The notes under the pieces were generated by a model. That model did no database searches. It was not told the DNA's origin and saw nothing but the letters and a program-made list of their open reading frames with translations. Source: Hippopus hippopus (lineage: Eukaryota; Mollusca; Bivalvia; Cardiida; Cardiidae). From it: a stretch of DNA of 64,000 nt. Position 1 is the first letter of the stretch, and every line of letters begins with the position of its first letter. The DNA is taken from the NCBI GenBank assembly GCA_946811185.2, contig OX328097.1, forward strand, positions 60,789,063 to 60,853,062, given 5' to 3'. The position numbers and the translations under genes are program-made. Positions 1,328 through 50,858 of this stretch are shown here, in pieces.

Positions 1328-4300
1328 GTAACTCACTACTTCTGTACTATACAACATAAGTGTAGACTTGTCCATATTGAAAGTATTAGCAGACTACAAA
1401 TTAGATGTAGCTCAATGATGAGATTTGTCTCCAAAAGTGTTGAAAACATTGTGGAAAAAGGAGAAAATGCTGGTTACCATTATTTTCTCTTTTTTCCACA
1501 AGGTTTTCTAAACCTGTTTTAATTATGGTTGTTTTAAACTCGTGATTGTGTAGTGGCTAAAATTTTGCTTCATTCTCTTTCACATCTAAACTGGAGCACC
1601 ACTAATGTTTTGTGAACAAGATAAATTTTTAGGAGGACTGTTTTGGAAGAAAATGTAGGATTAATGTCATAGTCTAGTCATCTTCTTCATTATTCGTTTC
1701 ATCATAGTTATGTGAAAACTTTCTCATATTTCTGTTATTACTGAAGATGTTTAATTGACATTTGGACTAGTCCTTATCTCTGTCCTCCAAGGCAAAATTT
1801 TAGACCTGTCCAATTTTAAAGCATTTGCTTATGACAAGATGCAGTTGATGGAATTTGTCATTTAGAGACTAGGAAACACTTTTGGAAAAGGAGAAAATGC
1901 TGGTTACCAGTATTTTCACTTTTTCCTACAATGTTTTGAATAGCATTCTTTCTTGGGGTTGTCAAACCTCTGGACTGTAAGGTAAAGGGTTAACTAGGGA
2001 AACTTAAACCAGAAGGGTAGGTAAGTCGCAACACATTTTTGACACAGTTATGCCACTTTCTTTTCACACTGAAATAGCAGCTGCTGCCAATTGTAGGCAT
2101 CTTCATGTGGTACTTTTGTTAAATTGTTTGGTAGTGTTTATTCATTTACAACAGAATCGAGTGTTTTAACTACTCTGAGGAAGAAAGCTTTTGAAAATAT
2201 CAAGGAAAGAGGAAAAAATGTTGGTTACTGCTGGTTTACACTCATAGTGTTAAATGTTCATGGTGAAAATTACGGGACTTGTGAAAGGGTAGAAAACATT
2301 TTAGGTAAAGGAGAAAATGCTGGTTACTATCGTTTTCTCCTTTTCCCGCAGTGTTCTCAAAAGCCATCTTGGTTAGGGTAGTTAGGACACTGGATTATTT
2401 CCTAGAAGGTTGAGACAATGAAAAAAGAGGATGTCATTTCAGGATGTCAATCCAGACAAGTTCATTGCTGTACTGACAGGTGATGCTGAAACAGCTGGTG
2501 GAAAAGTCATCGACAGGTATGCACCATCTGCTTTTATTCTGTTCCCGAAATTTTGGACACTTCTCAAATTGAAAGGAGCAGCAAAAAGCAAATTTGAAAT
2601 GCATATAAATGAGTTTATGCTCTGATGTGGTAGAAAAACATGGAAAAGGAGAACATGTTCATTACCAGCATTTTCTGTTTGTCACACAGTGTTTTTGAAA
2701 GCCTTCTTCCCAAGGGTCGTTAAACATGGGATTGTTTGGTAAAGGGTTAACCTTTTAATCTTTAAATCTTTACTAAACAACAAAGCTCTGGTCTTGCAGA
2801 AAACAAATTAAGCATGGTGTGAATGTTGGGATTTGTCTTTAAAAGGGTAGAAAACATTGTCAGAAAAGAAGAAAATGCTGTTTACTGGCATTTTTTTCTT
2901 TTCCACAATGTTTGTAAAATTTTGTCATTTGGTAGAGGGCTGATATTGCACAAGCAATTAAAACCTTTTTTCACAATATTTCTTTCAACAATATACATAT
3001 TCCTTACAGAACAGGATTTTATTGTTATATTTTCAAGTAAATAATGAACTTTATCTTTATTAGCACTGAAGATGACTACATCTTTGTCAACTTTGTTGAC
3101 CACGGCGCACCTGGAATCTTAGGTTTTGGAGATGATTTCGTAAGATTATAAGCAGTTTGGATGATGTTTCTGTTACTAACATAGATATAGTTAACTTGTT
3201 GCCTCCAGACACAAATTTGAAGCAGACAATTTGAAGCAAACCTTGTAAATTCATCTTTATCAACAGCAGTTAAGGTCAGATACATCAATGAATTTACAAA
3301 TGTCATGCAAAAACATAATTGCAAAAAGAGAAGTTGGTAAATATGAGCAATTTATACTTTTTGCTGCAAAATGAAAAAAAAAAACGTTGATCTGGAGGCA
3401 GGAATGTGTTAATCCAGTGTATTCACATAGCTTGACTGTTTGGCTTGGGTTGATGTTTTTATGTTTATCAGCTCTGCTGTTTTGCGAAGAAAACACCAAG
3501 GTATTGCCATAGCCGTGACATGGATGTCTGTGTCATCATGCAAAAAACATGGACATTCTATAATATCTCTGTTATTACTGAAGATAATTCATTACCTCAA
3601 ACTTGGACTAGTTGTTAACAATTAAAAGGGGAACCTATACAACAAGGGCAGGTAACCATCAAAATATTTTTGACTTTGTTATGCCTTTTTTTCAACTTGG
3701 AATTTTCACTGAAAGCAACTGCAGCAGAGTGCCATATACAGTCAAACCTCAGTGGCTCAAACCTGGAAAATTTCAAACAGCAATGAAAGGTAGAATGATG
3801 ATATTTGGCCCAGCAAAATCTCTATATGATTTAAATTGTTCGACCATGGAAAACTCTCACACTTCATAATTTGACCTTTCGATTACCTACCATGGACCTG
3901 TCATTCCTTCTTCTGTGTATTTTACCTGTCAAAGTCAAACAAAAGGTTAATCAATAATAAGTCACAGATTTTCACACCTTTATCTGTTAACTTGATACGT
4001 CGGAAACTGTCTGTCCAATAATGGATGTGGTGCATTTTTTTAAAACTTACTATAAAATATACACACTTGATTTAGTTGTCAATTAAAGATTTTTTTGCTG
4101 TGATTGAATTATTGCTATGTCTTTAATTTATTGGTTTCCAAGAATGTTGTGATGAATTATTTCTGCAATCATTTTTATACGCCCATCGAAGACGGGACAT
4201 ATTATGGGATCACCCATGGTGGGTGGGCAGGCGGTGTCCAGTTCTTTGTCCAGAACATAACTTTGTCATCTCCAGTCCGATTGACTTGAAACTTGGCATG

Positions 4301-7300
4301 TGTGTTTTTTGCAATTATACGGAGTGCAGTGCGAAAGAACCATAACTCTACCTCGTGCTGTCTTTGAGTTATTTCCCTTTGATCGTCATTTTTACAGCAT
4401 TTTCTGCTTGTCTGGAGCATAACTTTGTCATCTTCAGTCTGATTGACTTGAAACTTGGCATTTGTGTTTGTTGCAATAATATAGAGTGCAGTGCGAAATA
4501 ACCATAACTCTACCTGGTGCTGTCTTTGAGTTATTTCCCTTTGATCGTCATTTTTACAGCCTTTTCTGCTTGTCCGGAGCATAGCTTTGTCATCTCCAGT
4601 TCGATTGACTTGAAACTTGGCATTTGTGTTTGTTGCAATAATACGGAGTGCAGTGGGAAAGAACCATAACTCTACCCGGTGCTGTCTTTGAGTTATTTCC
4701 CTTTGATCGTCATTTTTACAGCATTTTCTGCTTGTCCGGAGCATAACTTTGTCATCTCCAGTCTGATTGACTTGAAACTTGGTATTTGTGTTTGTTGCAA
4801 TAATACGGAGTGCAGTGCGAAAGAACCATTACTCTACCTCATGCTGTCTTTGAGTTATTTCCCTTTGATCGTCATTTTTACAGCATTTTCTGCTTGTCCG
4901 GAATATAACTTTGTCATCTCTAGTCTGAACATCTTCAAATTTGGTATGCATGATTGTTGAAAATTTACGGAGTGCAGTGCACAAGAACCATAAATCTTCC
5001 TAGCACGAATTTTGAGTTATTTCCCTTCGATCGTCATTTTTACAGCATTTAGTGCTTGTCCGGAATATAACTTTGTCATCTCAAGTCAGAGTGACTTCAA
5101 ACTTGGTATGCATGTTTGTTGCAATATTACGGAGTACAGTACGCAAGAACAATAACTCTACCTAGTGCGGATTTTGAGTAATTCCACTTTGATCTTCATT
5201 TTTACAGTATTTCTTGCTTGTCCAGAACGGAACTTTGTCACCTCAAGTCAAATTGACTTGAGACTTTGGTAAACATGTTTGTTGCATTACCTGCCCTTTA
5301 TGATTATTATACCCTCTCGACAACTGGTGGTGGGATGGGCATATCTTGCGACAATTTGCCGCTCTTGTTGTTAAATGGTACAATGGTATGAAAATATAGG
5401 TTTCCATTACAAAAGGTTTTTTTGTACCACGACTTTGATCATAATCTGCACATCTAACTTAAATATGATTCAAGATGATGTTAAGTTTCATTTTACATTA
5501 TGGTCTGCAAATAAATTTCCTTTTTCTTAGCTTATCATTTTTTTGCTAATAGAACGACTTTTGAATAAGTAAAATGTCAAAACTATAGGTGACCGTCCTA
5601 TTGCAGAAGCTACATACCAACAATCGGTGAAAAGGCGTTTTAGATTAAAAAAACATAGGGTTACTTTGAGAAGTTTTCCAAAAAATTAGTTTACCTATTC
5701 TCATTTATCAAAACAATTTATTGCCAGTACTTTGGCATGGTACTTGTGAATGACTATTTTTACATAAACTCATCCACTTTTTTGATAGTGTTGGCAAAGT
5801 AATTGTATCATGTTTTTTAGAATCAAAGAGGATTCCTTACACATTTTTCATCCTGTAATAATGCAGTGATCAAGTATCACATTAAAACACAAAATGTTTA
5901 TATTGAGGAAAGAATTCCAGTACAAATGAATGAGTATTCTTTACGATTTCATTCATTTCTACATAAAAATAAGAAGCGATGATTGAAACTAGTTTGGCCT
6001 GTAAACAAAGTGTGCATGATGTCATTCATCCAGGGCACAATCCAAGGATGGTATCTCCAGAAATAGAATGTGATTAAGGTAGGTTTAAAATGTAAACAGT
6101 TAAGATGATTTGAAGCAATGAGAAATAAAACAATACACCTACAAAGTACTTCCAGTAAGATCATTTCACAGATGTAGAATCATTTATTACAGACATCTCA
6201 GTATATTTATGGTTTGTCCATTCTTATGGGTAGGAATCATGGATGATCAGTTTTATTGGGTTCTTCCGGATATTTCAAATACAAAATCTATATGAAAATA
6301 CAATGAGAATACTTGTAAACCGTTCACTGACCTCTTCATATTTAATCTGAAAATAGATCAGTCAAACTGCCATTAGTTTGAACAAATTACCCAGTCCCAA
6401 AGGTGTTTGAGCTACCACAGTTTGACTATATATGTAATGCTTAGAGTGCCAAATGCATGAAATGCCAATTTTCAGTTAGTAAACAAGAGCAGAATATTTC
6501 AATTTTGTGGCTGTTTTTGTCGGAATATTCATAGCAGTGGAGACCTGTATAATGTGTAAAAGAATGACTGGTTGGCTTTGCAAAGCATGTTAATTGAAAA
6601 TGAAGCTTGCTTAGTATGTCGATAAAAAAAGACGTAACACATAATTATAACCATTTACCACACAATCCCAAATTTTAACAACCTGTAGGAGAAGGCTTTT
6701 GAAAATAATGTGGGAAAAGGAGGGAATACTGGTAATCAGCATATTCTCCTTTTCCAACAATGTTTTTACCCTTTCACAGATAAATCTGATAATATGAGCC
6801 AATTTTAATTTATTCACAGTGTTTTCTATCCTTTTACAGCCAGAATAAGTTCATACCTGACGTTATATTAACTTACTTTTAAGTTTTTAACACCTTTGGG
6901 TGAAAGCTTTTGAAAAAAAAAGAAAATGCATGTGGGTAACCAGCATTTTCTCCTTTTCCCTCAATGTATTCTATCCTGTCATAGACAAATTCTTTCACTC
7001 TAAACATATTTACTGATTATTTTCAGTCTTCAAATGCTCTCCAATTGGACAAGTGTTATTCTAGTAGAGAGTTAACTCTGAATGCCTAATAAAACTGAAG
7101 GACATTTTCAGTGTGGGAAAAAATGCAAAACTTGAAGTATCAAGACTGCTCTGATTAGCGCACTATCATAGGTTACTCATCAACTCTTACCAAATGACAA
7201 ATTCTAGACTCTTCCAAACTGTAAGCTTCTGCAGACAACAATTTTGATAGTGACAGAAATAAACTTTGAGAAGTTGGAAAAACGTGTGGGAAAAGGAAAA

Positions 7301-10300
7301 AATGCTGGTTACCAGCATTTTCTCCTTTTCCCACAATGTTTTCGAAAGTCTTTTCCATCAGGGTCATTAAAAGTCAGGATTGTGTGGTAATCTGTTAATC
7401 TGTTCATACTAAACATACCATGTTTATGCATAAATCTTTACCAAACAACAGCAATTTGTACTTACCCAAATTGAAAGCACTTGCAGACAACAACTTGAAT
7501 GAAGCTCAAATGATGATTTTTGTCTTCGACAGGGTATAAAACATTGTAGGAAATGAAAAAATGCAGGTTACCAGCATTTTCTCCTTTTCCCACAATGTTT
7601 TCAAAAGCCCTCTTTTTCAGGGTGGTGAAAATAGGAAATGTGTGATAAAGGGATAAGTAACTAAAAATCCAATATTCACCATTATTTTGTTGGGTTTTTC
7701 TTTTTTCCATGTTACATTAAGTGGGGGGAGTAAACCCTTTAGCAAACAATTCCATGTTTAACGACCCAAATGAAGAAAGCTTTTGACAACATTGTGGCAA
7801 AAGCAGAAATGGCAGCATTTTCTCCTTTTCCCACAATGTTTTCTACCCTGTCAGAGAAAGTCAGTTCAATTTTACCCATTTCAACTTAAGCATCTGCAGA
7901 TACTTTGGAGACTCCAAAATTTTTCATTTGGTAAAGAGTTAACTTTATAGCAAAGAACAAAACTCTAGACTTGTTAAAATTGAAAGCATTTGCAGACGAG
8001 AAAATAAATGTGACTGAGAAATTGAAATTGGTTTTTGGATGGGTAGCCAACATTATGGAGAAAGGAGAAAATGCATGCTGGTAACCAGCATTTTCTCCTT
8101 TTACGACAGTGTTTTCAAATGTCTTCTTCTTTAGCGTAGTTAAAACTTGGAATTGTTGAATGAAGGGTTAAAACTCATGTGACATGACTGTAACAGATTG
8201 TTTAAAGCACTTACTGTCATGCACTTATGAATCACCATTATGATGTTGTTTACTCTTGACCCCACCAACTCATTACCAGAAGATAACATTTTAGACTGTT
8301 CCAAATTGAATACATTTGCAGACGATAAATTGAATGGGGAACAAATCATTGAATTTGTCTTTTAAAGGATAGAAAACAATGTGGGAAATGGAGAAAATGC
8401 TGGTGACCAGCATTTCCTCCCTTTCACACAGTGCTTTCTACAGCCTTATTGCTCGAGGTCATAAAAAACTTTGAACTGTGTGGTAAAGGGTCAACCCATT
8501 GTGATATGATTATAAATGTTAGAAACTTTTGAAAGTTCATGGTTACTTTTTACAAAAAAACAGTGGTCCAGATGATTTTGTCTTTGTCAACTTTGTTGAC
8601 CATGGGGCACCAGGTATTCTGGGGTTTGGTACAAAGACGGTAAGTCAGATCACTGGCACCACTTTCGGGGCACAATACCTTTTCCCCCTTACACTGCAAA
8701 GATTTATGGATTTTTCCTAAATTCTTGCTAGAGAGAACCCCTTAAAAAAAGAAGGTCCATGCAAAGTGAAAAAAGGGTTTAAAGCATCTGCTAAAAGTAT
8801 CCATATCAGCCTGTGCAGTTAGTGCAGGCTGACATGGATTAAAACTTTTTGCCTTTTTATTAATTTGCTCCATCTCTAAAGGTTACATTGATGCTTTTAA
8901 CCCCCTTTTCCCAGAGAGCTTCTCATAAGTATCAGGGCTTGATCCTTAATTCCTTAATATAACTTGATTCTCCTTCAAGCTGTAGCTTTAGGACTTTATT
9001 TTAGGGGATAGCTATGAATCTGCACTTAGACAATGCCAAGTTTTCAATGATATTTGGATAGAAAGACTTTTTTTTTTCTAGAAGTCATAGATCATAAAAG
9101 TTTTCAAAAGATATGTATCCCAATAATAGATAGGGTTGCAAAGATTTTAACTAGCAGTAGAAGATCATTAAATTTGTTTCATTAACCCTTTACTGCACAA
9201 CCCCAACTTTTAACGACCCTGATCAAGAAGGCTGTTGAAAACATTGTGGGAAAAGGAGAAAATGCTGGTTACCAGCATTTTCTCCTTTTCCCACAATGTT
9301 TTTCAGAAGGCTTCTTCCTCTGGGTCGTAAAAACCAGGGATTGTTTGGTAAAGGATTAAAGATCATAAAAGGTTACTATACAAATGTTTATCAAGAATAG
9401 AAAAGCATCATGGGTAATTGTACAAAAAGGGAGGTAATCCTGACATTATTGAAAATATTTTACCATAGTACTGTAGTTCCTTGTCACTCCTTTTTGCTCT
9501 TTACCTAACAGTCACATGTTTCATTAACCCTGAGGAAGATCTTTGAAAGCATTATAGGACAAGTAGAAAATACGTGTAATCAGTATTATATCTTTTCCCA
9601 CAGTATTTCCAAAGCCTTTTTCCTCATTGTTGTGGACAGTCCCAAAATTTTGTTGTATGGTAAAGAGTTAATGGTTACGAATAAGAGATAGGGAATTTTT
9701 CCTTTTTTTGTTTAGTTTAAAGATCATAAAAGGTTACTTTACAAATGTTTATCAAGAATAGAAAAGCATCATGGGTAATTGTACAAAAAGGGAGGTAATC
9801 CTGACAAATTATTGGAAATATTTTACCATAGTACATGTACTGTAGTTCCTCATCACTCCTTTTGCTCGTTACCGAACAGTCACATGTTTTATCAACCCTG
9901 AGGAAGATCTTTGAAAGCATTATAGGAAAAGTACAAAATACGTGTAATCAGTATTATATCTTTCCCACAATATTTCCAAAGCCTTTTTCCTCATTGTTGT
10001 TATGAGACAGGAAAGGGTTATTAAACGCTTAATGCTTAACCTGTATATGCATTTATTTCCCTGCTTATGCTTTGTTTTATATACATGTTAATAATTTGTC
10101 ATATATCTAACTGGAGATGAAATAATACATTTTTTGTGTTTCAGTTGATTTTATATCATAAATACAACACAATCAGTTAACCATCAGTATTACTATTTTA
10201 TGAATACACATGTACAGTACCCTAGTAATGTTATCTGATTGATTTGGCCATGAATCAGGACACACATGTATGCCTTATCCTATTACCATCTGCAATAGAC

Positions 10301-13300
10301 TCACTGGGGTCCTGCATGGCTCAGTCGTAAAGTGTATGACTCGTAACCTGAAGGCTCGGGGTTCAAGCCTTACTGGATCCTCAGCGCTTTTCATTGGCGT
10401 GTCCTTGGGTAAGAGCAGAGCCTTAGCCTAGTGCTGGTGAAACCCAGGAAAATCATGAATATGTGAGCTGTTGCCATGATATAACTGAAATAATATTGAA
10501 AGTAGCATAAAACACCACTCGATCAAGCAAGCAAGCAATCAACCAACCAACCAACCAGCCAACCAACCAACCAATCCACCATTCTTTAATATGAATACTC
10601 AATAGGAATTTATCGTTTGTTTTATGACATGTATGTAGTATCAAAAAATATATTTTCAAAAAGAACTGTATTGTCTAATACATTCAGAATTGTCGCTTAA
10701 CACACAATTCCAGATTTTAACAACCCTGAGAAAGAAAGCTTTTGAGAACATTGTGGGAAAAGGAGAAAATGCTAGTAACCAGCTTTTTCTCCTTTTTCCC
10801 ACAATGTTTTCTACCCTTCCCATATCATATTTTAATTTTTGAAACACATCTATTTTGTCTTCTGCTAATGCTGTCAATTTGGACAAGTCTGAAACTTTGT
10901 TGTTTGGTAAAGAGTTAATAATTTGTAAGGTACCTTTGGTACTATACCTACCATAAGTGATATTTTTTGCTATGCTATGTTTGAAAATGTTGAGACAAAA
11001 GGGATATTACTTGTTACATCAATTGTGTCTTTTCTAACAACATTTTCAAATGTATTCAGTATGAGACATTCTGTTTTGTTAATCCTATTTCTTAACTCTT
11101 AACCACACAGTCCCAAGTTTTAATGACCTTGAGGAAGAAGCCTTTGAAAAACATTGTGGGAAAAGGAGAAAATGCTGGTAACCAGCATTTTCTCCCTTTC
11201 CCACAAAGTTTTCTTTTCTTTCAGACACAAATTCCATCATTTGAGCCACATTTAATTTGTCGTCTACAAATGCTTTCAGTTTGGAACAGTCTAAAATTTT
11301 GTTGTTTGGTTAAGAGTTGAGGGCATTTTTAATGGTGCCTGCAGCAGAGTTTGTCTCGGGCATAATTTTATTTATTTATTTTCTTTTACAGTTGAAGGCA
11401 AGTGTACTAAATGATGCAATCATGGACATGCACAAGGATAGAAGATATGCAAAGGTAATTATATAACAACAATATTTATACCGTCGTGTCCAGTAATCTT
11501 GCACATCCAGCAATCTTGCGCACTTCGGTAGATTCCTGTTCCGCGAGTTTGTTTGATGAATTCTACCGGTTTCTGCAGTGTTTCTTAGACCGCAGGAATT
11601 TGGAATAATAAGAAAACCTCCAGAAAGGAACTTTAGCCAAATTTTGTACTTGAGAATGTCTAAAGTTGTTTATGACGTCATCCTTACTAATTATTCATAA
11701 ACACACCCTATGACCCAATTCTCAACGAGACTGGCTGTAGCACTTTTTATCTGTCAATTAAACAAGTAATCCATGTCTCATCACAAAGACAAGTCAACTA
11801 AACACATATTAACAACTGTATAAGATATATAGAAACAGTTTTAACATTATTTTCTTTCGTGACATGTAACCTTTATCAGATGACAAATTTATTTCTTATT
11901 TGCTGCCATTTTGCCAAAGTTCTGATCAAAGGCCTGAATCGAGCATAACTATTTCTTTTCTTCAATTATTCTTTGTATGGGCCACAAATACTTAACAAAT
12001 CCCTTGCAATGACTTTATTCAATATAAGTGCGCAACATCACTGGACAGTTGTATGTCGGATAAAACCTCACAGTTAGTGTTTACTTCTTGAATGTTTGTG
12101 TTGTTCTGGGAATCTATTTATAACTATCTTGAGTCATAATCTAGATGAAATATTTCTATAAATATGTGACCAGCCATGCAAAAAGGGACCATCTGGGAAC
12201 TGCGAAAAGTGTCAACCCTGGTCAGACTGCGTGAATTGCACAGGCTGACCAGGGTCGACACTTTTCGCTTTTATGATATTTTCTGTATGAAAAGTGGTCA
12301 TTCTATCTTGTTATACAATCATTTTTGAACTATCAACTTAAATTGACCTGCACTGTCATTGATCTGTTTTCATCTAATTGATACACAGAATTCCCAGATT
12401 GTCCCTTTTCGTGTGACGGGTCACATATATAAAAAGCTGTGAGGACCTAGCAATTCCTTTCAGTGTCATGATTAAACAGTCATTTGCTTAGGTGTGCAAG
12501 ATTACCGGACAGCATCGTACTCTGGTTAACAACATTTTCTCCTTTTCCCAAATTGTTTTCAAAAATCTTTTTCATCAGGGTTGTTAAAATTGGGGATTTT
12601 GGGGTAAAGGGATAACTTATGAAATAATCATTTTTTAGCTCCACTGGCCAAAGGCCAGCGGGCTTATGTCATGGCCTGTTGTCCGTCGTGCGTCCGTGCG
12701 TCCGTCCGTCAGTCCGTCCATCCGTGCGTCCGTCCGTCCGTCCGTCCGTGCGTTAACTTTTTTTTAAAACGTCTTCTTCTCTGAAACTACCCATCCAATT
12801 TTGATGAAACTTCACAGAAATGATCCTGCCATGGTCCTCTTCAGAATTTCTTGAAAGAATTTAATTCCTTCAAAAACTCTGGTTGCCATGGCAACAAAAC
12901 TGAAAAATTTTGAAAATCTTTGAAAATCTTCTTGTCTGAAACCGTAAGGCCAAGGGCTACCAAATTTGGCATGTAGCTTTATCTAGTGGACCTCTACCAA
13001 GTTTCTTCAATTTATAGCCCTGGGGTCAAAATTGGCCCAGCCCCGGGGGTTACAAGTTATACATGGGCTTATTTAGGGAGAACTTTAAAATTCCTCTTCT
13101 ACCTAGCCATAGGGCCTAGAGCTACCAAATTTGGCATGTAGCTTTATCTAGTGGACCTCTGCCAAGATTGTTCAAATTATAGCCCTGGGGTCAAATTAGG
13201 CCCTGCCCGGGGGTAACAAGTTTTACATGGGCTTATATAACAAGTTTTACATGGGCTTATATAGGGAGAACTTTAAAATTCTTCTTTGACCTAGCCATGG

Positions 13301-16300
13301 GGCCTAGGGCGACCAAATTTGGCATGTAGCTTTATCTAGTGGACCTGTACCAAGGGTGTCCAAATTATAGCCGAGGGTCAAATTTGACTTCGCTCCGGGG
13401 GGTAACATGTTTTACATGGGCGGGCTTATATAGGAAAATCTTTCGCATCTAGCTATAAGGGCTAGGGCTATCAAATTTTGCATTTAGCTTTATCTAGGGG
13501 GTCTCTATCAAGGGTGCCCAAATTATAGCCCAGGGGGTCAAATGTAGCCCCACCCCAGGGGGTCACAAGTTCTACATGGTCTTATATAAGGAAACTTTAA
13601 TAATCTACTTGTACATAGCCATATTTAGGCTTAGGGCTACCAAATTTTGCATGTAACTTTATATAATGGGCCTCTACCAAGAGGGCCCAAATTTTAACTT
13701 TGGGGGTCAAGTTTGACTCCACACCAGGGGTCACAAGTTTTACATTGGCTTTTATAGTGAAAACTTGATAAACCTGTGTCATGGATCACATATTTTACAG
13801 GGCCTTTTATTCAGCAAACTTGTTTTACATGACTTTTTATTGGGCAAGATTAAAAAATCTTTTTGTTTATAACCACACATTCTAGTTTCATATTGTAGGT
13901 CTGGGGTCAAAATTGCCTTCATTCCAGGGATCGCAAGTTTAACATGGGCTTCAAAATATTGTCACTTCAATTTAAACATTAATCAAGGGAAATAACTCTT
14001 TTTATGAAAGATAAAGTTCGTTACTATTTACCTCCCTTGATTATCAAGCTGCAGTGATACATGATTGGTGCTAGACAAGTTTTTTAGCTCCACTGGCCGA
14101 AAGCCAGCAGGCTTATGTTATGGCCCGTTGTCCGTTGTGCGTCCATCCGTATGTTAACTTTTTAGCTCACTTGAGCACAACGTGCTCAAGGGGAGCTTTT
14201 AGGATCACCTGGTGTCCGTCATGCGTCGTGTGTCGTCAACAATTCTTTAAACATCAACTCCTCCTAAACCACTGGGCGGAATTGGACCAAACTTGGCTGG
14301 AATGTTCCTTGGAAGGTCCTCTTTAAAAACTGTTCACAGAATTTGATTCCATCAAAAACTCTGGTTGCCATTGCAACTAAATGGAATTTTTTAGGGAATT
14401 CTTTAAAAATCTTCTCCTCTGAAACCACGGGTCAGATTTTGAAATAATTTCACAGATATGCTCCTTGGGTGACCCTTTTTAAAAATTGTTCGTAAAATTT
14501 TGATCCGTCAAAAAATGTGGCTCTGGTGAATGGGGGCATCTTGCACCATATAGAAATGAAGGAATTCTTCAAAATTCTTCTTCTCTGAAACCGCTGGTCA
14601 GATTTCGAAATAATTTCACAGGATTGTTCCTTGGGTGACCCTTTTCAAAAACTGTTCGTAAAATTTTGATCCGTTAAAAAACGTGGCTCTGGTGAATGGG
14701 GGCTTCTTGCACTATACAGAAATGAAGGAATTCTTTAAAAATCTTCTCCTCTGAAACAGCAGGTCAGATTTTGAAATAATTTCACAGGATTGTTCCTTGG
14801 GTGACCTTTTTCTAAAATTGTTCGTAAAATTTTGATCCGTCAAAAAATGTGGCTCTGGTGAATGGGGGCTACTTGCACTATATGGAAATTTAGAAATTCT
14901 TAAAAATTCTTCTTCTCTGAAACGACTGGTCAGAATTTTACTTAATAGCCAGTGGAGCGATACAGGGCCATCATGGCCCTCTTGTTCTTTAATACCTTTG
15001 CTGTTGGTACTTAATAGAATTTTCCTGATGCATACCTACAATATAGTTTTTTGCCAACCCTTTACCAGAGAACAAAATGGCGGACTTGTATTAATTCAAA
15101 TTGCTTTTAGACAACAAATTAAATGTGGCTTGAATGGTTGGATTTTCTTATAAAAGAACAGAATCATTTTTGGAAAAGGGAATAGTGCATTAGTACTTAA
15201 TAAAATCTTTTTGATGAGACAAATTTATTCAGTGCTCTCAGCACAGATTTTAGTTCATTCTTTACCACAAACAATCCCAAGTTTTAATGACCCTGTAGAA
15301 AGAAGGCTTTTGGAAACATTGTGTGAATAGATAAAATGCTGGTAACCAGCAATTTCTCCTTTTTCCGCAATTTTTTCTACCCTATTAAAAGCAGAAATCA
15401 TCATTTTATCTACATTTATTTTGTTGTCTGTAAATGCTTTCTTTTTGGTCACGTCCAAGATACTGTTCTGCAATAAGGAGTAAAGAGTTGTTATTCTTTG
15501 ATCTGATAAAAACTTCCCATAATTATTCCGTACCTCTGTATAATGATATTGTCCTGCCAAGTGTATAAGCAATTTTGTTGTAGAAGCATTTCCAGAGCTT
15601 TGATTTGCTTTGAGCTCTTTGAGAAAATTTCATACTTCACAAGGCCAAAGGTCTTGTGATTTGACTAAAATTTCTCATGCAGGCAGAAGCAATTACATGT
15701 TCAAGCCCCAGGAAAGTAACAACTAGAAATATAGTGCTGTGTATGAGATTATGGAAGTTCCTTTTGATTCCTTAACCTTTTTCCAAATAGCTTTATGTTT
15801 TGATGACCCTAAGAAGAAAAGCTTTTGAAAACATTGTTGGAAAAGGAGAAAAAGCTAGTTACCAGCATTTTCTCCTTTTCCCACAATATTTCCTATGCTT
15901 TGATAGAGAAAGCTTATCATTTTAGCAATATTTGTTTTAATGTAGTCTCAAATTTTGCTTTTTTGGTAAAGGATTGAATAAGGATTGATCTTCTTCTAAA
16001 AGCCAAAGATAGAAGCAATCACTTGGAAAAACTTTGCGGTTCATCTTTTTGATGGCAAAAGGATAGAATAACAAAGAATTTGGAGTTGAAGGTTTATGCA
16101 TTTAGGTGCGGGAGATCACTCCTTCCTTACTGCATAGCTTCATCCCGTATAAAATCAATACCTAACAACTGCATTGGGGAGAATTCATTTTAGCTCGGTG
16201 GTTAAGGTATTGGTTGAAAAATAAGGATGTCTTTCGCACGAGTTCGAATCCCGCCAGGTGTGGTTTGTATTTCAGCTAAGTAATTTTTGCGAACTTTCAT

Positions 16301-19300
16301 GTTCGTAAGAATTTAACTAGATATTTTACCTCTCACTGTATTTTCAAACTTGTACTCTATTTTCAGATGGTGTTTTACATTGAAGCATGTGAATCTGGTT
16401 CCATCTTTTATGACCTTCTGCCTAAAGATGTCAATGGTATGATTCTACATGTGTATAAGACATAAAAACTTTACCAAACTATAAAATTATTGACTCATCT
16501 AAAATGAAAAGATTAGCAGAGGACTTTCAGTGTTCCTCGTATGATGGAATTCGTCTTTGAAACAGTTGAAAGGAGAAAATGCTGGTTTTTCTTTTTCCTC
16601 TTTTTCCTACAGTGTTTCCAAAGCATTCTTCTCCATGGTCTTTAACTCTTAGGCTGCTAAACGCAACTCACTGACCTTTTGTGGACAGTGTAGATCAAGA
16701 TCAGACTGCACAGAATGTGCAGTCTGATCTTGGATCTACACTGTCCGATGAGAAGATATTATTCTGCAAAACATAACTTTGAAATATCAATTTTTGGACT
16801 TTTAATATCGAATTAAAAATTTCATTTTAGTTATTTAGAAGGATAAGGGTTAAAACTTAGGGTTGTTTGGTAAAAGGATAACCCATAGAGAGCAAAACAA
16901 ACCCAACAGACATTTCAGTCTAGAAATAATAGAAATAATACCAGAAAGTCTCAGCAAAGAGGACAGTTTAGATGAAAGATCAAACTGTTTGTTCTGTGCA
17001 TTCTGATTACTGGCTGAGAAGCACTTAAAGTTAAGAAAGGTGCTTACACTTTAAGGGTTAACACTTTACAAAACAATTCCTTATTGTTAATAACTAGGCA
17101 AGAGGCTATTGAAAACAATGTGGGACATGGAGAAAATGCTGTCAACCAGCATTAGGAAAATTTGAGTAATTGCATGTATATGTATAGGCTCTGTATGAGC
17201 AACATCATATTTTGCTAGAAGATTGTTAAATGTACCAAAGGGTCAGAGCTGTTTCAGATATTTTATGCACAAATATTGTATTAGCAATATTCTGGAAAAA
17301 GGGGGTTTAATGCATCTTTGTAAAGCATTACACCATTCAAGTCTTAGCACAAAATACATCCATTTTGTCAAAAACCTTGCCAAATCAGGAGGTAGAATGG
17401 TCCTTTGTAATGCAGAAAATTAACTGATAGCAAATAGTTTTGACCCAGGTCAGCCCGCATGGACTGTGCAGGCTGACTTAAGTTGATATTTTTACAAATG
17501 CATTTTCACAGAACATGACTCAGCTATGTAAATATTCATTTCAGTTTTTGCCACTACAGCAGCTAATGCTCACGAGTCCTCCTATGCCTGTTACTTTGAC
17601 AAGAGCAGAAAGACTTATTTGGGAGATGTGTACAGCATTAAATGGATGCAAGATTCAGACAGAGTATGTATTTCAGTTTGCATCAGTTCATTTGGAGAGT
17701 TTTGTGTGAATGTCCTTGGGCAAGATACACTTCAGAGTCCCAGTCTTGTACTGGTGAAACCCAGGAGATACATGGATATGTGACCTGTCATAGTGATATG
17801 AGGGAAATAATGTAGAAAGAGAGATAAAACATGGTTCCATCCCATGATTCATTTATTCACTTACGGAGAAGGTGTGGAAGGAATTGTCAAGATATTAACA
17901 TTTGATCTAATTTTCTAAATTACCGAGTATTAACTCTTCACCACACAACCCTGACTTTTAACGACCTTGAGAAAGAAGGCTTTTGATAGCATTGTGGGAA
18001 AGGAGAAAATGTTGGTAATCAGCATTTTCTCCTTTTCCTGCAATACTTTTACCTTTTCCAAGACAAATCTGATAATTGAGGCTGCATTTGATTTGTCTTC
18101 TGCAAATTCTTTCAATTTGGATGCCTCTAAAAGTTTGTCATGTGGTAAAGAGTTAATTCACTGATATGACTTTGTACTGTTACTGAAAAATTATGTGGTC
18201 TTACGTCTTTGCCAAACCACAAAAATCTATCTGTCCATACTGAAAGGTTTTGTAGACGACAAATTGGATGTGGCTTAAATAAATGTATGAACTTTGTTTA
18301 TGAAAGGCTAGAAAACATTGTGGGAAAAGGAGAAAATGCTGGTTGGTAAAAGGTCACTTGTTCATCAGAAATATTGTAAGTTTCTTTACCCTAATTGTGC
18401 AGCAAACAGCCAAACAAGTGGCAGTTATTGGTTTTGTAGTCCAAAATTGACATAATGCTTTTATTAGAGTTTCCTCTACACAGGATTATTTGGCCTGCAA
18501 CACGCGAAAAGGGGCATTCGTACATCTGCGTAAAGTGTTGTTTCGGATCAGCCTGCACAGTCCGCGCAGGCTAATCCAAAACGACACTTTCCGTTTTTAT
18601 GTAATTTTCTGTTTGTCGCAAGTCAACTGAAGGACAAAATCTAATTTAGTTGTAAAGTGCCGTCTTGGATTAGCCTGCGCGGACTACGCAGGCTGATCCG
18701 AGACGACACTTTATGCAAATGTCCGAATGCCCCTTTTCGCGTGATGCAAGCCATTTGGTAAAGGGATTAAGTTCACATGACAGGAGAATTCTGTTTTCAC
18801 TGAACACAAACATCTGGTGTTTAGCTTCAAATGCCAAATGTTGCCCCTGTATCATCATGCCAAATGTTGTAAGGTTGCACAGATTAGGACGGATAGAAAA
18901 TGCATTTCATTCTATAGAGGCTATCCAAGACATCACTGTGGTTGTTTTTGGTTTTAAATCGGAGACAAATCCCCAGAGTTTCTTTATCCCATACACCTTA
19001 TATATTGATTATTTATCTATGTTTACACATCTGACTAGATTCTGCACAATATCATGTTTTAACAGCGTTTTTATGCTTCCCGAAGGGTGAGCATATAGTT
19101 GCCACTTCATCTGTCCGTCCGTCTGTCCGTCCATCCTTCCATCTGTCTGTCTGTCTGTCCATCATCCAAAGCCATTTTTCCACAACCCCTAGACCAAATT
19201 GGATGAAACTTCATATTTGAACTCCTTAGGATATTGTGCTCATGTAGTTTTCCCGGTTTTCCAATTTGAGGCTGTGTCTTGGAAAAAAGGGTTTTCTTGT

Positions 19301-22300
19301 AAAATTCCAATTTTTACTAATATCTCATTCAGTTTTCGTCAAAATTTCATGAGACTTCACATTTATATTGTTTATTAATAGTTTCACCATGTGCCCTTGT
19401 TTTTTTATTTATGCAAAACCATGGTATGGGAAAAGGGTGCTTAATGTCTTATAATGTTAGGTTTTGTTTTTTTGGACTCTGAAATTAAACATTTCCCAGT
19501 TTCTTCAAGACTATTCAAAATATATGTTGCTGATCAAAAGCCCCAGACCATGATTTCATTCTTTCCTATTTATACTAAGCTGTATTATAGAAAAAGAGGG
19601 CTTAATGACAAACTCAAACATAAAGTTTATAAATGTTTAATCTGATTTTTTTTCAGACAATTTTGCCATTACTATAATAGTAATGTTTGATTTACAGATT
19701 GTTCACATTGACAGGAAGTATTACACCACTGTTCCAAGAGTTATGCCCCTTCTTTATTTAATTATTTGAAAATGTGTTATTATGGTTCTACAAGAACAGA
19801 GATTTCTTACAGGATTTCAACGTAGTACTTTTCCAGTCTTTTCTTGAATATTACAGTAAGTGTAACATTTCTTGAAAAGAAGTCCTTGGTAACATTGGCA
19901 AATGCAGTTTGGCAGACAGGACCAAACACAAGTAGCCTGTTTCACTCCCACCCTCCTCTCCTGTGACCAACCATTTACCGACAGCCTTCACTTTCCTAAA
20001 AAGAGACCTGTTCGGGGAGCATAATCCGTCTACGATGGCTCTTGTTCTCTCTGGCTGTAAAAAGGTATCTTTTATGCTGTCTTCTTCTGGATCAGTAAAA
20101 CAGGATTGTTTGCTAAACTGTAAAAAAGGTGTATTTTGTTTAATTACAGGAAGATTTAACGTCAGAGACACTTGAAAAACAATTTGAGATCACAAAAGAG
20201 GAAACCAATACAAGTCATGTACAACAGTTTGGTGATATGGTTAGTTGACTCTAGAGTTCTAAGCTCAACAAAACCCTTTATTTAACCCTTTACCACACAA
20301 TGACGCCTTTTAACGCCCCTGAGAAAGAGGCCTTTTGAAAACATTGTAGGAAAAGGAGAAAATGCTGGTAACCAGCACTTTCTCCTTTTCCCACAAAGTT
20401 TTCTAACCTATCAAAGAAAAGTTGCGTCATTTGAGCCACTATGAAATTGTCGTCTGCAAATGCTTTCAATTTGGATAGGTCTTAAATTTTGCCGTGTGGT
20501 AAAGGGTTAAGGATGATTTTTATCTCTCTTTTAGCTCTTTACCAAATGACAGAATTTCAGACTTGACCAAATTGAAAGCATTTGCAGACATCAATATAAA
20601 ATGTGAATAGAAAATCAGAATTTGTTTTCGGAAGGGTAAAAACATTGGGGGAAAAGGAGAAAATGTTGGTACCCACCATAATGTTTTCAAAAGGTTTTTA
20701 TTCTCATGGTTGTTAAAACTTGGGATTGTGTGGTAAAGGGTTATATTGAGAACATCTGTAGACAACCTAATCAAATTTTAGTACATATTAGCCAAAGATC
20801 TCTGATAGGTAGAAAACTTTTCTGAAAAAGGCGAAAATACCAGGGTTTTCTTCTTTTCCAATGATGTTTTCAAAAGCCTTCTTTGTTAGGGTCATTAAAC
20901 AGAATTGTATTGTGAAGGCTTAATCCTTTGTAAGATATAAGCATGAGAAGAAAGGAGTTTGGAAATATTTTAGAAAGAGCAAAAAATGATTGAAAGCTGC
21001 TTATTTCTCTTGAAATGCTGTAAAAGTGGATAATAGTGTGGGTCCAAAATTTCGTAAGTTACGAAATACTGACCTTTTGTATGTTTTAATTTCTGCTAAT
21101 ATTGCAACAGAAGATCCCACATAAAAAGTTGTTTTTGTGCCAGTGTCCTGAACTGATGAACCCCATTAATAGGCAGTGTTAACCGCCACTAGTCTGGTAT
21201 ACTGGTCAACCTGATGGCAAAAAGGTACTTTTTGATGCCGACAAGGGTCCCTGTCAGTCCCTCCCACATGACCTGGTGTGTAGGTAAAACATACCTCAAT
21301 GTAGCCTCAATTTCTGCTGGTGGATAGCTTTGAGATTTTTATCAATACACAAAAATCGCAAAGATTTCCACAATGTGATGATTTCCATTTTTACAGTATA
21401 ATAATTACCATAATGCTTTCCAGTTCTTTCACAGTATGTTAACCCTTAAAGCGCCTTTCAAAACTATAGTTGCCTTTCTGGCCAGTGTAGATCAAGGTCA
21501 GGCTGCCAAAACATGCAGCCTGGTCTTTGATCTACACTGTCCACTTTGTTGCAACACTGTACAGAAAAGCAACCATAAAAATGCAATTATCTGGGTTGTA
21601 TTTCTTAAATGAGAATGTCTGATAGGTTTATTTGGCGCTCTTTGTGTTAATACATGTAGTTCTTTTGATTTTTTTCTTTTAGAGTATTGCTTCAATGACT
21701 GTGGCTGAATTCCAAGGTAACCAGAGGGCCAAGAGAGTTGACTCTGTCACACTTCATGATGCATGTGTAAGTTAATTTCTAGGTTTCTAAATATTGGTTC
21801 CAGCATTAGACATCTTATTGGCTGAGAAGATTATCAGCCAGTCAGATGGCTTGTAAGTTGTAAGAAAGTAAATAATTAGAAATGAATTGAACTTAGCATC
21901 AATTTTTATTGTTAAGGTGGATCTTTTAGGATATCAATAATTATTAATATCTTTTTTTACTGTTTTTCTCTCAAGCGTTCACCACACAATGCAGAATTTT
22001 GACGACTTTGACAAAGAAGCCTTTCAAAAACATTGCAGGAAAAGGAGAAAATGCTGGATAACCAGCATTTTCTCCTTTTCTCACAATGTTTTTTACCTTT
22101 CCCAGAACAAATTTCGCATTTTCAGTGACATTTATTTTGTCATCTGCAAATGCTTTGAATTTGGTCCAGTCCAAAATTTTGTCATTTGGTAAAGACTTAA
22201 CTCTTACAAGATTACAAAATTTTGGACTTGTCCTAATTGATGATGAATTTTCTACCGGCATTTTTTTTCTCTTTTCCAACAACATTTTCAAAAGCCTTTT

Positions 22301-25300
22301 TTTGGAGTCGTAAAAGGACAGAATTCTTTGATAAAGGGTTCATTTAGTTAGCCATGACCATTTGATTATTTCCTAACCCTTTAACAAACAATTTGGAGTT
22401 TTAACAACCCAAGGATGAAAGGCTTTTGAAACATTGTGGGAAATGGAGATAATTCTTGTAACCAGCATTTTCTCCTTTTCCAACAATGTTTTTGTTCATT
22501 ATCTAATTTATCATGTGCAAATGCTTTCAGTTTTGATCAGTCTAAAATTCTGTTGTTTCGTAAGGAGTTAAAGCCAAATTTTTACTACAATATTTGAATA
22601 ATGCCCATTAGATCTATCTTTAGGGTGATGCTGTCAAATCTGAGGATGTACCACTTGAAATTCTACGCAGAAGTCTTGAACTTGAAACAACTGATGAGGG
22701 CAGAAACAAGATAAAAGAAAAAATGGAAGAACTGGAAAATGTAAAAAGAATTTTGAAAAAATTTGAAACATTTCAAAATGCTCTATGATTAGGGGGTTTA
22801 ATGTATCTCCATGATGCATCATAAAAAGCAAGTCATCAATTAATTATGGATCCATAAAATCTATTTTGTCTAAGAACTGTCTGAGTTGTGTGGTAGAATG
22901 GTCCTCTGACATGCAAAGATCAGTAGCAATGAGTATTGATCCAAGTCAGAGTGCATGGATTGCACAGGCTGACTGGGTCAATACTTTTTGCAGATGCATT
23001 AAGCTCCCTTTTCACAGAGCGTGACTCAACTATTTTCATCATCCATTAGTCAATAAATATGACTTTAATACACCTGTGCAGTTCACAGTCTGTAACACAT
23101 TGTGGGAAAAGAAGAGATTGCATATAATAAGCAATTTCTCCTGTCCACAATTTTTGCAATACTATTCAGTTTTGGAAGAAAGACCAATACTTTTCTGTTG
23201 TTGAAAATCTGTTTACTTTGTATGATTTCATGTATTTTTGGTAGAACTGAAATAGCTTGTACCATAATGGGTTTAACTTTTCTTATGAAATAATTTTTAT
23301 TCCTGCATTAGGAATATGTTAGTTCTTATGATTGTATAGTTTGTATTGTGTCTAAAGAATATCCATAAAAATATCTGTTACTTTTATGTATATGTCATTG
23401 TGGATCTGAGATCAGATTGCACTTGTGTGCTGTCTAACCTTGATCTATAAGGATCACAAAGGATCCTAAATAATGGGGTTTCCCTTCATATACAGGTTTG
23501 TAAAAACTCAGGATCATTTGGTAAAGGGTGAGTATTGATTGATTGATTGTATGGTGTTTAAGACCGTTTTCACAATTATTTCAGTTATATCGCAGTGGCC
23601 AGTGCACCTATCCTTGCTCTCCTGGAGTCTCTTTTACCAGTACTCAGCACAGTATTCTTTCCATGGAACTGGCTGCTTTCCCACATAACCATTGTTGAAA
23701 CATTGCTTGGTGGTGGGAAAGGAATGAATCCTGTCGCAATGACTATCATCAATTTTTTGGAAAGAAATTGGCCAAGCCAGGGATTGAACCCACGACCCCC
23801 TGTTCTCAAGAAAAGGGTGAATAAGTAACTTTTCACTGTAGAATAAATCAATATTTCTGTTCTATACAGGAAAGAAAACTTGTGACCCAGACCATGAAGA
23901 CATTGGTTGGTAAAGCTGCTGAATTTCATGGTGTTAGTACAGATGTTTTGGAGAAACGCAAGGATATAACAAGATGGGATTGCTATGAGGATGCAGTGGA
24001 TTATTTGATTGAGAATTGTCAGGATCAGCTCAATTTGCCGAAGGTTTGTGTTAGATATTACGAGGGCTGTCCCAAAATAGTATAGACAAAGGCTATAATA
24101 CAGTCAGTGTTTACAAAATAGATTCAGCAAGTTTCGGAATTCTTTACAAGAGCTTTGTGCATATATGTGTGAAATATAAACTAACTACCTTCAGAATTGC
24201 TCAGTCTATCACGATTTAAAATAAGCTACCCTTACGTACCCGGCGCACACTAACGTCAACGTGATGACGTCCCTAGAAAACAATTTATTCTTTTTCAAAG
24301 TACTCTCCATGGTACTTGATGCATTTACGGTGGTGTGTGACCCACTTACCGTATACGTCTTCATACCACTAGCTTTTCAAATTACTCAACACTCGCAGAG
24401 TTTCCTGTTGTAGTTCATTGAAGTTTTCGAATCTATGTACCCGCAACTGAAACTTTAAATAGGGGAACAATGCAAAGTCTAGGGGTGCTAAGTCTGAACT
24501 GTAGAGCACTGCTCCTCTTCCATCCATCAACAAATCTCTTGTGCCATTTAAATACAAGAGATCTTGACACAGGTTTGAATTTTTCTGTAGCGTGCAGTTT
24601 GCATAGTGTTTGTGTAGGAGTCATATCTAAGTGTACACAATATTCGATAACATTCCACTGCGCAGCCATTTTCTTTGATGTCACCATTTTCAGCACGTTG
24701 GAATTAACCACTGCACTAGGTTTTGTTCTATAACTTTAATCAAAATAACATCACATAAGCATCCTTCGGTTTAATGATGTCAAATGCAATGATGTAGATC
24801 CATGTTGATTGATTTCCCGTAATTATGACCATGTTTGGAATTATAGACATGTAAAGATGTAGCATGTTCATAAAACCTAGTCACATTTTTGGTGTGCGCT
24901 GGGTTAGGTACCCCATTCGAGTAAGTAACTTCATAAAATGTACTATTTGCGATCTTGATTTTTTATTTTATATGTGAATATGCACAAATGACTAACGGAT
25001 ACAACATGCAAATTTAACTGAAATCTGACATCGAGTTCCATGATAAATAGTGTTGTCCACGCTATTTTAGGACAGCCCTCGTATGTCCTGTGGACAACTT
25101 TTGTCATTTCACAGCAGAGCTCCCTTTGAAAACTCTGTATCAAGTGAAGAAATTACTTATTATGAGCAAGTTCTGGCAATAGGAGAACTAGCCTATGTTG
25201 TGCAATTTCTCCTTTTACTAAAATCTTTTCAAAGTGGTCACCTTCTAGATGGAAAAAAGTTTTTCTGCAGGGGGATAATTTGTAAATGAAGGTTTGAATT

Positions 25301-48154: not shown

Positions 48155-50852
48155 GTTTCGTCTGGATGGACTTCCGGTATAATGAGTATGGACGCCATTT
48201 TTTTGTAGTGGGATGAAAAAATTAGTTTTATAGAAGAATTCTTTCGCTGTGTCAATCAGTTATAACAGAAAACAACAGAAAATGAATAACATGGAATGTA
48301 ACGATGGATTTAATGAATCTGATGTGATAGTTGACACTCAAAACATGATTTTAACACAAAATCGGTACGCTGGCCTTTCTGGCGCGCAAACAGACAAAGA
48401 AAACAAAGAAGTGGAATGTGATGAAGAAAATAGAAACTTCGTAGCGGTAAATCGAAAAAGAGCACGAGTAAGTACAGGCAGTTATTCAGACACACAAAAA
48501 ACACAGACTACACAAAAAATAAACATTAAATACGACAGATATGCTGATCTTCCTACGGACGAAAAACTTGTTGTTATGTTCGAACAATTACAAAACATGA
48601 ATGACAAAGTTGATGAATGTCTTGTACTAAACAAAAATGTCCGCATAATTGAGAACACTTTGTCTGATCATGACCGTCGCCTGAAACTGCTAGAATACAA
48701 ATCAATTGACTTAGAAGCGAGGTCTAGACGTAATAATCTGATCTTCAGTGGGATCCCGGAGCAAAGGGATGAAAATTGCACGTTGGTTTTAGAGAATTTC
48801 ATACGGGATCAGCTACATATTACAGACTGCACTCCGATCCAACGCGCTCACAGGCTAGGTCGCTTCAAGAGGGGCGCCACAAGGTCCATTATTGCTTTGT
48901 TATTGGACTATAGAGATACACAAACCATACTATCGTCTGCTAATAAGCTGAAGGGCTCGCATTTTAGTATCAATAAAGATTTCCCGAAAGAAATCGTCAA
49001 TGCCCGAAAAAAACTGTGGCCAGAATACAAGCGTCAGCGGCAAGCAAACCCGGAGAGCAAGGTGTCTATTGTTTATCCTGCGCGACTTGTTGTTGATGGT
49101 CGAACAATGGCTGACGAATTCCCCGATTGGAGCCCTATCATGCAAGGTAACAGGGGGGAACAGTTTTCACATAACATCAGTGACCGTTATACCACCCAAG
49201 CAAAACATAGTCACGCACGTGATCTATATACCATTAACAGTGAAACGGCGGGATCGAACAGCAAGCCTGTGCAAAATGAAATCAATGTCAGGAGTAGCGT
49301 TCAACACAACACTAGACGCAGACAATCCCAATCTCCACATCCGAATAGAGGAAGAACACATGCTCCGCTTTCCCAACGTACGCCTTTCCCAAGCTCCTCT
49401 TCGTCATCCAACAATATCCAACGCCCGTGGATGTCCCAACCAGTACAGTCATCCAATGAAGCCATTGCCCAAGCCGACATTGCATCACAATAGGAAATCG
49501 GGGGGAATGTTTCTTCGCTAAAAAACAAAAAAAATATACTAAAGTGTACATGTTTGAATGTAAATGGTCTCAAGAGACGTGTGAATTACCCAGATTTCTG
49601 CGACTTTGTTTGTTCATCCGATATTTTCTGCGTATGTGAGACTCACATAGACAACAGTGATATAGTGGATATTAACAATTATACATTTATAGCTAAAAAT
49701 AGAAGCAGGCATTACAAAAGGAAATCGGGTGGTATTGGTGCCTATGTGAGTAACGATATTGGAAAATATGTGAATCTGATTGAAAACGATTCAGACTACG
49801 TTCTATGGATTTCGATAGATAAGGCTTTTTTGCATTATGATGAAAACGTTATTTTAGGCATATTATACATTCCACCAGAAAGCTCTCGATTCTTTTCAAC
49901 TGATGAATTTGAAGAAATGCAATCCGAAATAAGTTATAAATGTAATGAAAATAAATATGTCTACCTAGCTGGTGACACCAACGGCCGAGTGGGCGCCATG
50001 CGTGATTTCGTCATATCTGATCCACATCTCCAAAATCTTTTCGATATCGATGGTGAGACCCAGTCGCAATTTTACAAGTATGAGATCCTTAATGAACTGT
50101 CCATTAATCTGCAAAGAAATACGAAAGACAAACAATCAAATTCACACGGCTACAGACTTCTGGATATTTGTAAAACTAATGATATGTTCATACTAAACGG
50201 TAGATTATTTTTAGATAGGGATACTGGGCAATACACTTTTAGAGACAGATCAGTCATTGATTATGTAATTGCTACGGCTGAATGCTTTAAAAATATAGCC
50301 CACTTTGAAGTTGTTGAAACCGATAGTCTGTTTTCAGACGGCCACAACGCGCTTTCCTGGCACATTAACAGTAAACAAAGTATTGATCCAAGCACCGAAT
50401 TCCCTAGTTCAGAACCTCAGTTGTTGAACCAGCGTCCACCATGGTCCCAATCCATGGAGCAAAATTTTGCAAGCTATATTAATCAGGAGCAGATTGAAAA
50501 TATATTGTCCCAATTAAACTCTTACCCACACTCTCAGGAAACTATCGATTACATATCCAAAGAGCTCCAGCTGATATTCCAAGACGCAGCTATTAAATCA
50601 TCTCAAAACATAACGAGTAGAAATCGGCCAAAATCCGAAAGGCATTACCCTATGAATAAACCATGGTTCGGTCCGCGATGCCATAAAGCTAGAACAGCAT
50701 ACCACTCCGCCAAAAACATCTACAACAAAAATAAAAGTGAATCTAACAGGACAAATCTTCAAAAAACAAGTAAAGAATATAAAAGGACTATGAATCACTT
50801 CATCAATAAGACAAAACTAAAAAATGAACAAAAACTACGCACAAAAAATAGT
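48155..50852 (+). mobile_element. 3'-truncated LINE insertion (ORF1 plus endonuclease, no reverse transcriptase)
   Basis: A 2,698-bp insert bounded by a 39-bp direct repeat at 48116-48154 and 50853-50891. It starts with about 125 bases of leader (GTTTCGTCTGGATGG...), then ORF1, then an endonuclease ORF in the same frame. It stops in an A-rich stretch before any reverse-transcriptase motif. LINE copies are normally truncated at the 5' end, so losing the 3' end while keeping a target-site duplication is unusual. The reading frames are not visibly decayed, so the insertion is probably recent. Confidence 0.9.
48282..49493 (+). CDS. LINE ORF1 protein (L1 ORF1p-like, coiled coil + RRM-like)
   Basis: The start was taken at the first in-frame ATG, giving 403 residues; the frame is open a little upstream, without an ATG. 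ORF1 proteins of this type trimerise through a coiled coil, bind the element RNA and act as chaperones during retrotransposition. Visible parts: an acidic, polar N-terminus (1-90); a heptad-like helix (about 92-147, with FEQLQNMNDKVDE and LKLLEYKSIDLEARSRR); an RRM-like domain opening at NNLIFSGIPE (about 151-160); QRAHRLGR; and a C-terminal domain with INKDFPKEIVNARKKLWPEY. A Ser/Gln/Pro-rich tail runs from about residue 290. The stop is TAG, followed in the same frame by the endonuclease ORF. No frameshift or early stop was seen. Confidence 0.85.
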   Translation: MNNMECNDGFNESDVIVDTQNMILTQNRYAGLSGAQTDKENKEVECDEENRNFVAVNRKRARVSTGSYSDTQKTQTTQKINIKYDRYADLPTDEKLVVMFEQLQNMNDKVDECLVLNKNVRIIENTLSDHDRRLKLLEYKSIDLEARSRRNNLIFSGIPEQRDENCTLVLENFIRDQLHITDCTPIQRAHRLGRFKRGATRSIIALLLDYRDTQTILSSANKLKGSHFSINKDFPKEIVNARKKLWPEYKRQRQANPESKVSIVYPARLVVDGRTMADEFPDWSPIMQGNRGEQFSHNISDRYTTQAKHSHARDLYTINSETAGSNSKPVQNEINVRSSVQHNTRRRQSQSPHPNRGRTHAPLSQRTPFPSSSSSSNNIQRPWMSQPVQSSNEAIAQADIASQ

Positions 50853-50858
50853 AAATAG
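49494..50858 (+). CDS. LINE endonuclease ORF (EEP/APE-like), lacking reverse transcriptase
   Basis: The frame opens directly after the ORF1 TAG and has no ATG before the first catalytic motif. The endonuclease nicks target DNA to prime reverse transcription. Motifs in order (residue 1 taken as the Leu codon at 49554): LNVNGLKRR (1-9), CETHID with the catalytic Glu (about 29), KSGGIGAYVS, ILYIPPESSR, LAGDTNGRVG with the Asp/Asn pair (about 141/143), SVIDYVI with an Asp (about 236), and FSDGHNALSW with the final His (about 264). The D-x-H spacing has one extra residue compared with the usual SDH. After the domain comes a KPWFGPRCHKAR stretch typical of the linker before reverse transcriptase, then the frame runs into the target-site duplication and ends. 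It is a 3'-truncated ORF2, not a complete one. Confidence 0.85.
   Translation, partial: EIGGNVSSLKNKKNILKCTCLNVNGLKRRVNYPDFCDFVCSSDIFCVCETHIDNSDIVDINNYTFIAKNRSRHYKRKSGGIGAYVSNDIGKYVNLIENDSDYVLWISIDKAFLHYDENVILGILYIPPESSRFFSTDEFEEMQSEISYKCNENKYVYLAGDTNGRVGAMRDFVISDPHLQNLFDIDGETQSQFYKYEILNELSINLQRNTKDKQSNSHGYRLLDICKTNDMFILNGRLFLDRDTGQYTFRDRSVIDYVIATAECFKNIAHFEVVETDSLFSDGHNALSWHINSKQSIDPSTEFPSSEPQLLNQRPPWSQSMEQNFASYINQEQIENILSQLNSYPHSQETIDYISKELQLIFQDAAIKSSQNITSRNRPKSERHYPMNKPWFGPRCHKARTAYHSAKNIYNKNKSESNRTNLQKTSKEYKRTMNHFINKTKLKNEQKLRTKNSK

Follow-up and report, generated by a model that had tools for sequence, protein, structure and literature searches.

The 64,000 nucleotides of Hippopus hippopus DNA analyzed here (GenBank assembly GCA_946811185.2, contig OX328097.1, positions 60,789,063 to 60,853,062 of the forward strand; hereafter the window, whose own numbering and plus strand are used throughout) contain part of an animal-type legumain gene of the Peptidase_C13 family, in which the exon encoding the catalytic-His segment is present in two copies. 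The part of the gene within the window spans 1246-27343. It comprises exons w1 (1246-1327; reading ...DYKGK) and w2 (2443-2516), the alternative exons 3A (3064-3139) and 3B (8564-8639), termed A and B below, and exons e4 (11392-11454), e5 (16367-16436), e6 (17545-17663), e7 (20150-20239), e8 (21683-21766), e9 (22624-22740), e10 (23870-24043), and e11 (27242-27343). Exons w2 and e4 are the common 5' and 3' neighbors of A and B, e5 carries the catalytic-Cys motif, and e10 and e11 encode the prodomain, with e11 closing on the stop codon TAA. Exons other than A and B were located with bait peptides and by direct reading of their borders, and the splice borders of the gene have AG at all 12 acceptors and GT at all 11 donors. 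Because the protein read from w1 onward aligns from residue 55 of the legumain chain 4d3y_A, the N-terminal exons must, on this alignment, lie upstream of w1, beyond the left edge of the window.

Spliced with either A or B, the transcript is open over 349 amino acids, to the stop in e11. The B form scores 266.3 bits and the A form 266.1 bits against Peptidase_C13 (PF01650; curated cut-off 22.8), and residues 248-348 match Legum_prodom (PF20985) with 39.8 bits in both forms (cut-off 25.2). Residues 1-348 of the B form align to solved legumain 4d3y, the best match among solved structures (E 6.3e-95); the comparison of the A form with solved chains covered 84 residues around exon A. The best legumain chain in the solved-structure comparison reached 321.5 bits and the best plant enzyme 196.2, by which measure the predicted protein is closer to animal than to plant legumains. 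Both the DHG and the EACESGS motif are present in the alignments to solved legumains (B form, and 84 residues of the A form), and we take the His of the former and the Cys of the latter to be the catalytic residues of legumain. Scans of prokaryotic and viral contigs confirmed no bacterial or viral relative, as expected for an animal gene, and are uninformative on molluscs.

Direct reading confirmed the exact coordinates that a previous sequence-only reading had given for A and B, each of 76 bp. Exon A lies between TTATTAG and GTAAGA, and exon B between AAAACAG and GTAAGT. As that reading had also held, both enter in phase 2 and leave in phase 0: w2 ends with the AG of a Ser codon that either copy completes, and both copies finish on a full codon before e4. 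Since 76 is not divisible by three, the frame is kept only with exactly one copy. Including both A and B reads DDF-W-S-R-stop, with the stop three codons into B, and skipping both gives Ser-stop right at the junction of w2 and e4, in line with the earlier claim that using both or neither breaks the frame. Single inclusion is thus the sole productive outcome predicted for the pair. No third copy of A or B was found on either strand of the window, where the next-best ungapped match is 38 of 76, and within the 64 kb a search for duplicates of the remaining exons w1 to e11 returned none (the N-terminal exons lie outside). A and B are neighboring homologous exons, matched in length and phase and each bounded by intact splice sites, and their sequence is that of a well-formed mutually exclusive pair within the legumain gene.

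The two copies are identical at 50 of 76 bases and differ at 26. In the 25 full codons compared, seven change the residue and nine differ silently. The replacements fall at codons 1, 2, 5, 6, 23, 24, and 25, that is, at both edges, and the 16-codon core between them (codons 7-22) holds nine base differences in eight codons and no residue change at all; one more silent difference lies outside the core, at codon 4. The sequence-only reading had described the same active-site core, differing edges, and about nine synonymous differences, and this description stands. Over the 25 codons, dN is 0.27 and dS is 2.25, a ratio that is rough because the approximately 17 silent sites are near saturation. 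If five of the nine core changes had fallen on an unselected copy, the probability that all were silent would be 6.5e-4, and with all nine on an unselected copy the all-silent pattern appeared in none of 100,000 simulations. Because this pattern is improbable without selection, both copies must have remained coding for most of their existence. These results support duplication of a single exon with both copies retained as coding sequence, and they support purifying selection on both cores; the dS estimate places the duplication far enough back for silent changes to approach saturation. The proposal of an old duplication with selection keeping both copies is thereby strengthened.

An additional claim, which placed the variable residues after the His loop, applies to three of the seven replacements; the other four are located before the loop. 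More precisely, the changed residues lie before the strand leading to the His and 10-12 residues after it, and the residues directly after DHG are AP in both copies. At the N-terminal edge, B has Gly-Pro and A has Thr-Glu. The Gly-Pro of B is also found in the mammalian legumain chains compared and in four of the five plant chains shown, two of the four being the same enzyme, whereas Arg-Pro takes its place in the fifth. Over 25 residues aligned without gaps, B shares 13 residues and A 10 with a chain that is presumably human, and 14 and 12, respectively, with one that is presumably from mouse. Identity to three plant chains over the same length is 11, 11, and 11 for B and 9, 10, and 9 for A. 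By this small margin, B looks like the conservative form. With His not counted, the net charge over the 25 residues is -6 for A and -2 for B, which makes A more acidic by four charges.

We consider it probable that both copies are used in vivo to make legumain, so that one gene would give two full-length zymogens. In such a scheme, duplication of the His exon would have given rise to A and B, and each transcript would pick one copy carrying DHG. Frame alone could make the outcome exclusive, because transcripts that include both copies or skip both run into an immediate stop codon, which is expected to mark them for nonsense-mediated decay. The swap would leave the catalytic loop unchanged, alter both of its shoulders, and render form A more acidic. 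Rather than bring a new chemistry, the swap would most likely adjust how the protease depends on pH, how stable its zymogen is, or which substrates it prefers.

Splice-site strength hints at how a copy might be chosen. The donor of B matches the consensus at eight of nine positions and is predicted to pair with U1 at -8.8 kcal/mol, the strongest of the 11 donors; that of A matches at five of nine, the fewest of the 11, and pairs at -4.6 kcal/mol. Because B has the strongest donor and A the fewest consensus matches, B might be the default and A the regulated form, a weak suggestion. The acceptor of A ends in TAG|C and that of B in a run of A before CAG.

Several observations weigh against two regulated and functionally tuned forms. 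The donor of A ranks eighth of 11 by U1 energy, and the donors of the single-copy exons e5, e6, and e9 pair still more weakly, so a weak A is not strong evidence of regulation. Both acceptors are mediocre, with pyrimidine fractions of 0.63 (A) and 0.47 (B); the acceptor of w2 is no better (0.32). The 5.4 kb separating A and B rules out steric exclusion. No splicing-level mechanism for exclusivity emerged when stretches of approximately 600 nt beside the exons, with repeats masked, were examined for ungapped docking/selector pairing against 60 shuffles each: eight of ten region pairs were at chance, with no competing pairings outside repeats. The two pairs that exceeded all shuffles (upstream of A with upstream of e4, and upstream of B with upstream of e4) were discarded as repeat arms extending beyond the mask. 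Finally, the divergent edges could reflect weak constraint and not tuning.

The repeat in question is a palindromic foldback element with 57 copies in the window (1438-62804), 32 of which lie in the eleven legumain introns, at least one in each. Its palindromic core is near-perfect; at 9238-9302, for example, the 32-nt arms are 100% complementary. By eye, copies are often flanked by TTAACCCTTTACCACACAA-like ends, and the arm region of the element has 40 matches in the window. A copy comprising arm and palindrome in minus orientation is positioned just upstream of exon B (8260-8445), and a copy in the opposite orientation just upstream of e4 (11140-11325). Together they are predicted to form 154 pairs at -195.7 kcal/mol, versus -50.4 and -66.8 kcal/mol when folded alone. 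Judged post hoc, the arm is in minus orientation in seven of seven copies before B and in plus orientation in each of the two copies lying between exons B and e4. As a lead, the duplex of 8260-8445 with 11140-11325 would loop out exon B. The interval between A and B yielded no plus arm, which leaves no arm pair in the adjacent introns that would loop out A by itself. Repeat copies upstream of A are predicted to pair with the same partners upstream of e4 at -134.9 and -133.1 kcal/mol, which would loop out both exons.

Looping by these repeats as a feature particular to B was rejected, since a hand count found six of the ten internal exons (B, e4, e5, e6, e7, and e8) flanked by opposite arms; it is weakened also by the presence of the palindrome in all 11 introns and by the shared partners of the copy before A. 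We regard as doubtful, and probably incorrect in this specific form, a regulated isoform switch that exchanges the catalytic-His exon with an active-site charge shift of four and in which the 8260-8445/11140-11325 duplex controls B by looping it out to yield the A form.

Exons A and B share a second candidate element. A 15-nt sequence, GTCAACTTTGTTGAC, with a 6-bp hairpin (predicted fold -4.4 kcal/mol) lies at 3086-3100 in A and, base-identical, at 8586-8600 in B, and the exact 15-mer occurs nowhere else in the window. It is enclosed in 20 identical bases, TTTGTCAACTTTGTTGACCA, common to 3083-3102 and 8583-8602. The codons for FVNFVD show no silent difference, and eight of the next ten codons have one (hypergeometric P 0.0035, a post hoc and thus weak value). 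At saturation, the chance of six identical codons is 0.007, and the full stem is present in 2 of 128 codings. The hairpin could be a splicing element common to both copies or a product of chance; no structural RNA family in Rfam matched at gathering score.

If both copies are not used, one of them may be a relic that is hardly or no longer spliced in, the other being constitutive. The donor of A, with its few consensus matches, and the absence from A of the Gly-Pro edge found in most chains compared would fit this explanation. However, a relic whose silent sites are near saturation would be expected to show damage to its core residues, frame, or splice sites, and all of these are intact in both copies. 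The same calculation as above, 6.5e-4 for five random core changes all being silent, also argues against it, and we consider a relic unlikely.

Alternatively, the pair could serve mainly as a dosage switch, in which the early stops are purposeful and the productive proteins do not differ in function. Such a role would account for the immediate stop in both wrong forms and for the identical core protein, and the predicted pairing of repeats before A with those before e4 could provide a means of looping out both exons. Yet seven residues and four charges differ between the copies, and a second coding copy would be unnecessary for such a switch. Moreover, the pairing that would loop out both exons gains little over its parts folded alone (-164.4 versus -83.9 and -66.8 kcal/mol). 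A dosage role as the main function thus appears distinctly unlikely.

It is very unlikely that one copy is all that remains of a legumain paralogue, tandem or inserted, that has otherwise decayed, or that it forms part of a different transcript. The search for copies covered the 64-kb window, and an exon could have been donated from elsewhere in the genome. By contrast, no other exon from w1 to e11 has a second copy here, B stands alone without the rest of a catalytic domain, and the phases of the pair fit the host gene exactly. An assembly artefact joining two haplotypes or two genes is extremely improbable, given that each of the remaining exons occurs once and is in frame, that 26 differences in 76 bases are far above allelic variation, and that the introns do not form a duplicated block, because the five strongest similarities between the sequences upstream of A and upstream of B are all on repeat copies and downstream there is none better than E 0.1.

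The window contains other features besides the legumain exons. A tandem array of 6.3 copies of a 162-bp unit (4246-5266) lies in the intron separating A and B. Two regions at 10310-10380 and 16190-16270 resemble, by eye, the heads of tRNA-derived short interspersed elements (GGTTCAAGCC and AGTTCGAATCC, respectively), with no Rfam match. An inverted repeat at 18491-18590 and 18654-18753 has 100-nt arms that are 89% complementary and 63 nt apart. Two adjoining long open frames at 48234-49493 and 49494-50858 (419 and 454 amino acids, stop to stop) resemble, by eye, ORF1 and the endonuclease of a non-LTR (non-long terminal repeat) retrotransposon; neither had a Pfam match at 1e-3.

In its catalytic domain from w1 on, its prodomain, and its His and Cys motifs, the encoded protein resembles animal legumain (asparaginyl endopeptidase), and the gene differs in that its His-motif exon is duplicated. 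To our knowledge, no such exon pair has been described in any legumain. In plant asparaginyl ligases, which are likewise C13 enzymes, behavior has been attributed to residues close after the catalytic His. There, however, the tuning is between genes and involves the residues directly after DHG, where A and B share AP. Should both forms be produced, a single gene would supply two directly comparable legumains and with them a natural test of which positions near the His loop determine the enzyme's pH optimum, activation, or specificity.

Mutually exclusive pairs arising from tandem exon duplication are known from PKM, FGFR2 (IIIb/IIIc), the Dscam clusters, and ion-channel exons. The pair reported here shares with them the equal length and phase, the frameshift upon inclusion of both or neither, the conserved core, and the varied edges. 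It differs from them in that the duplicated exon carries a catalytic residue of a protease, and in that exclusivity is here predicted from the reading frame. Most known alternative exons alter binding surfaces or channel properties; in this legumain, the exchanged piece holds a catalytic residue, with the loop frozen and its shoulders varied. The kind of arrangement is thus a known one, the mutually exclusive exon pair, and its place is unusual.

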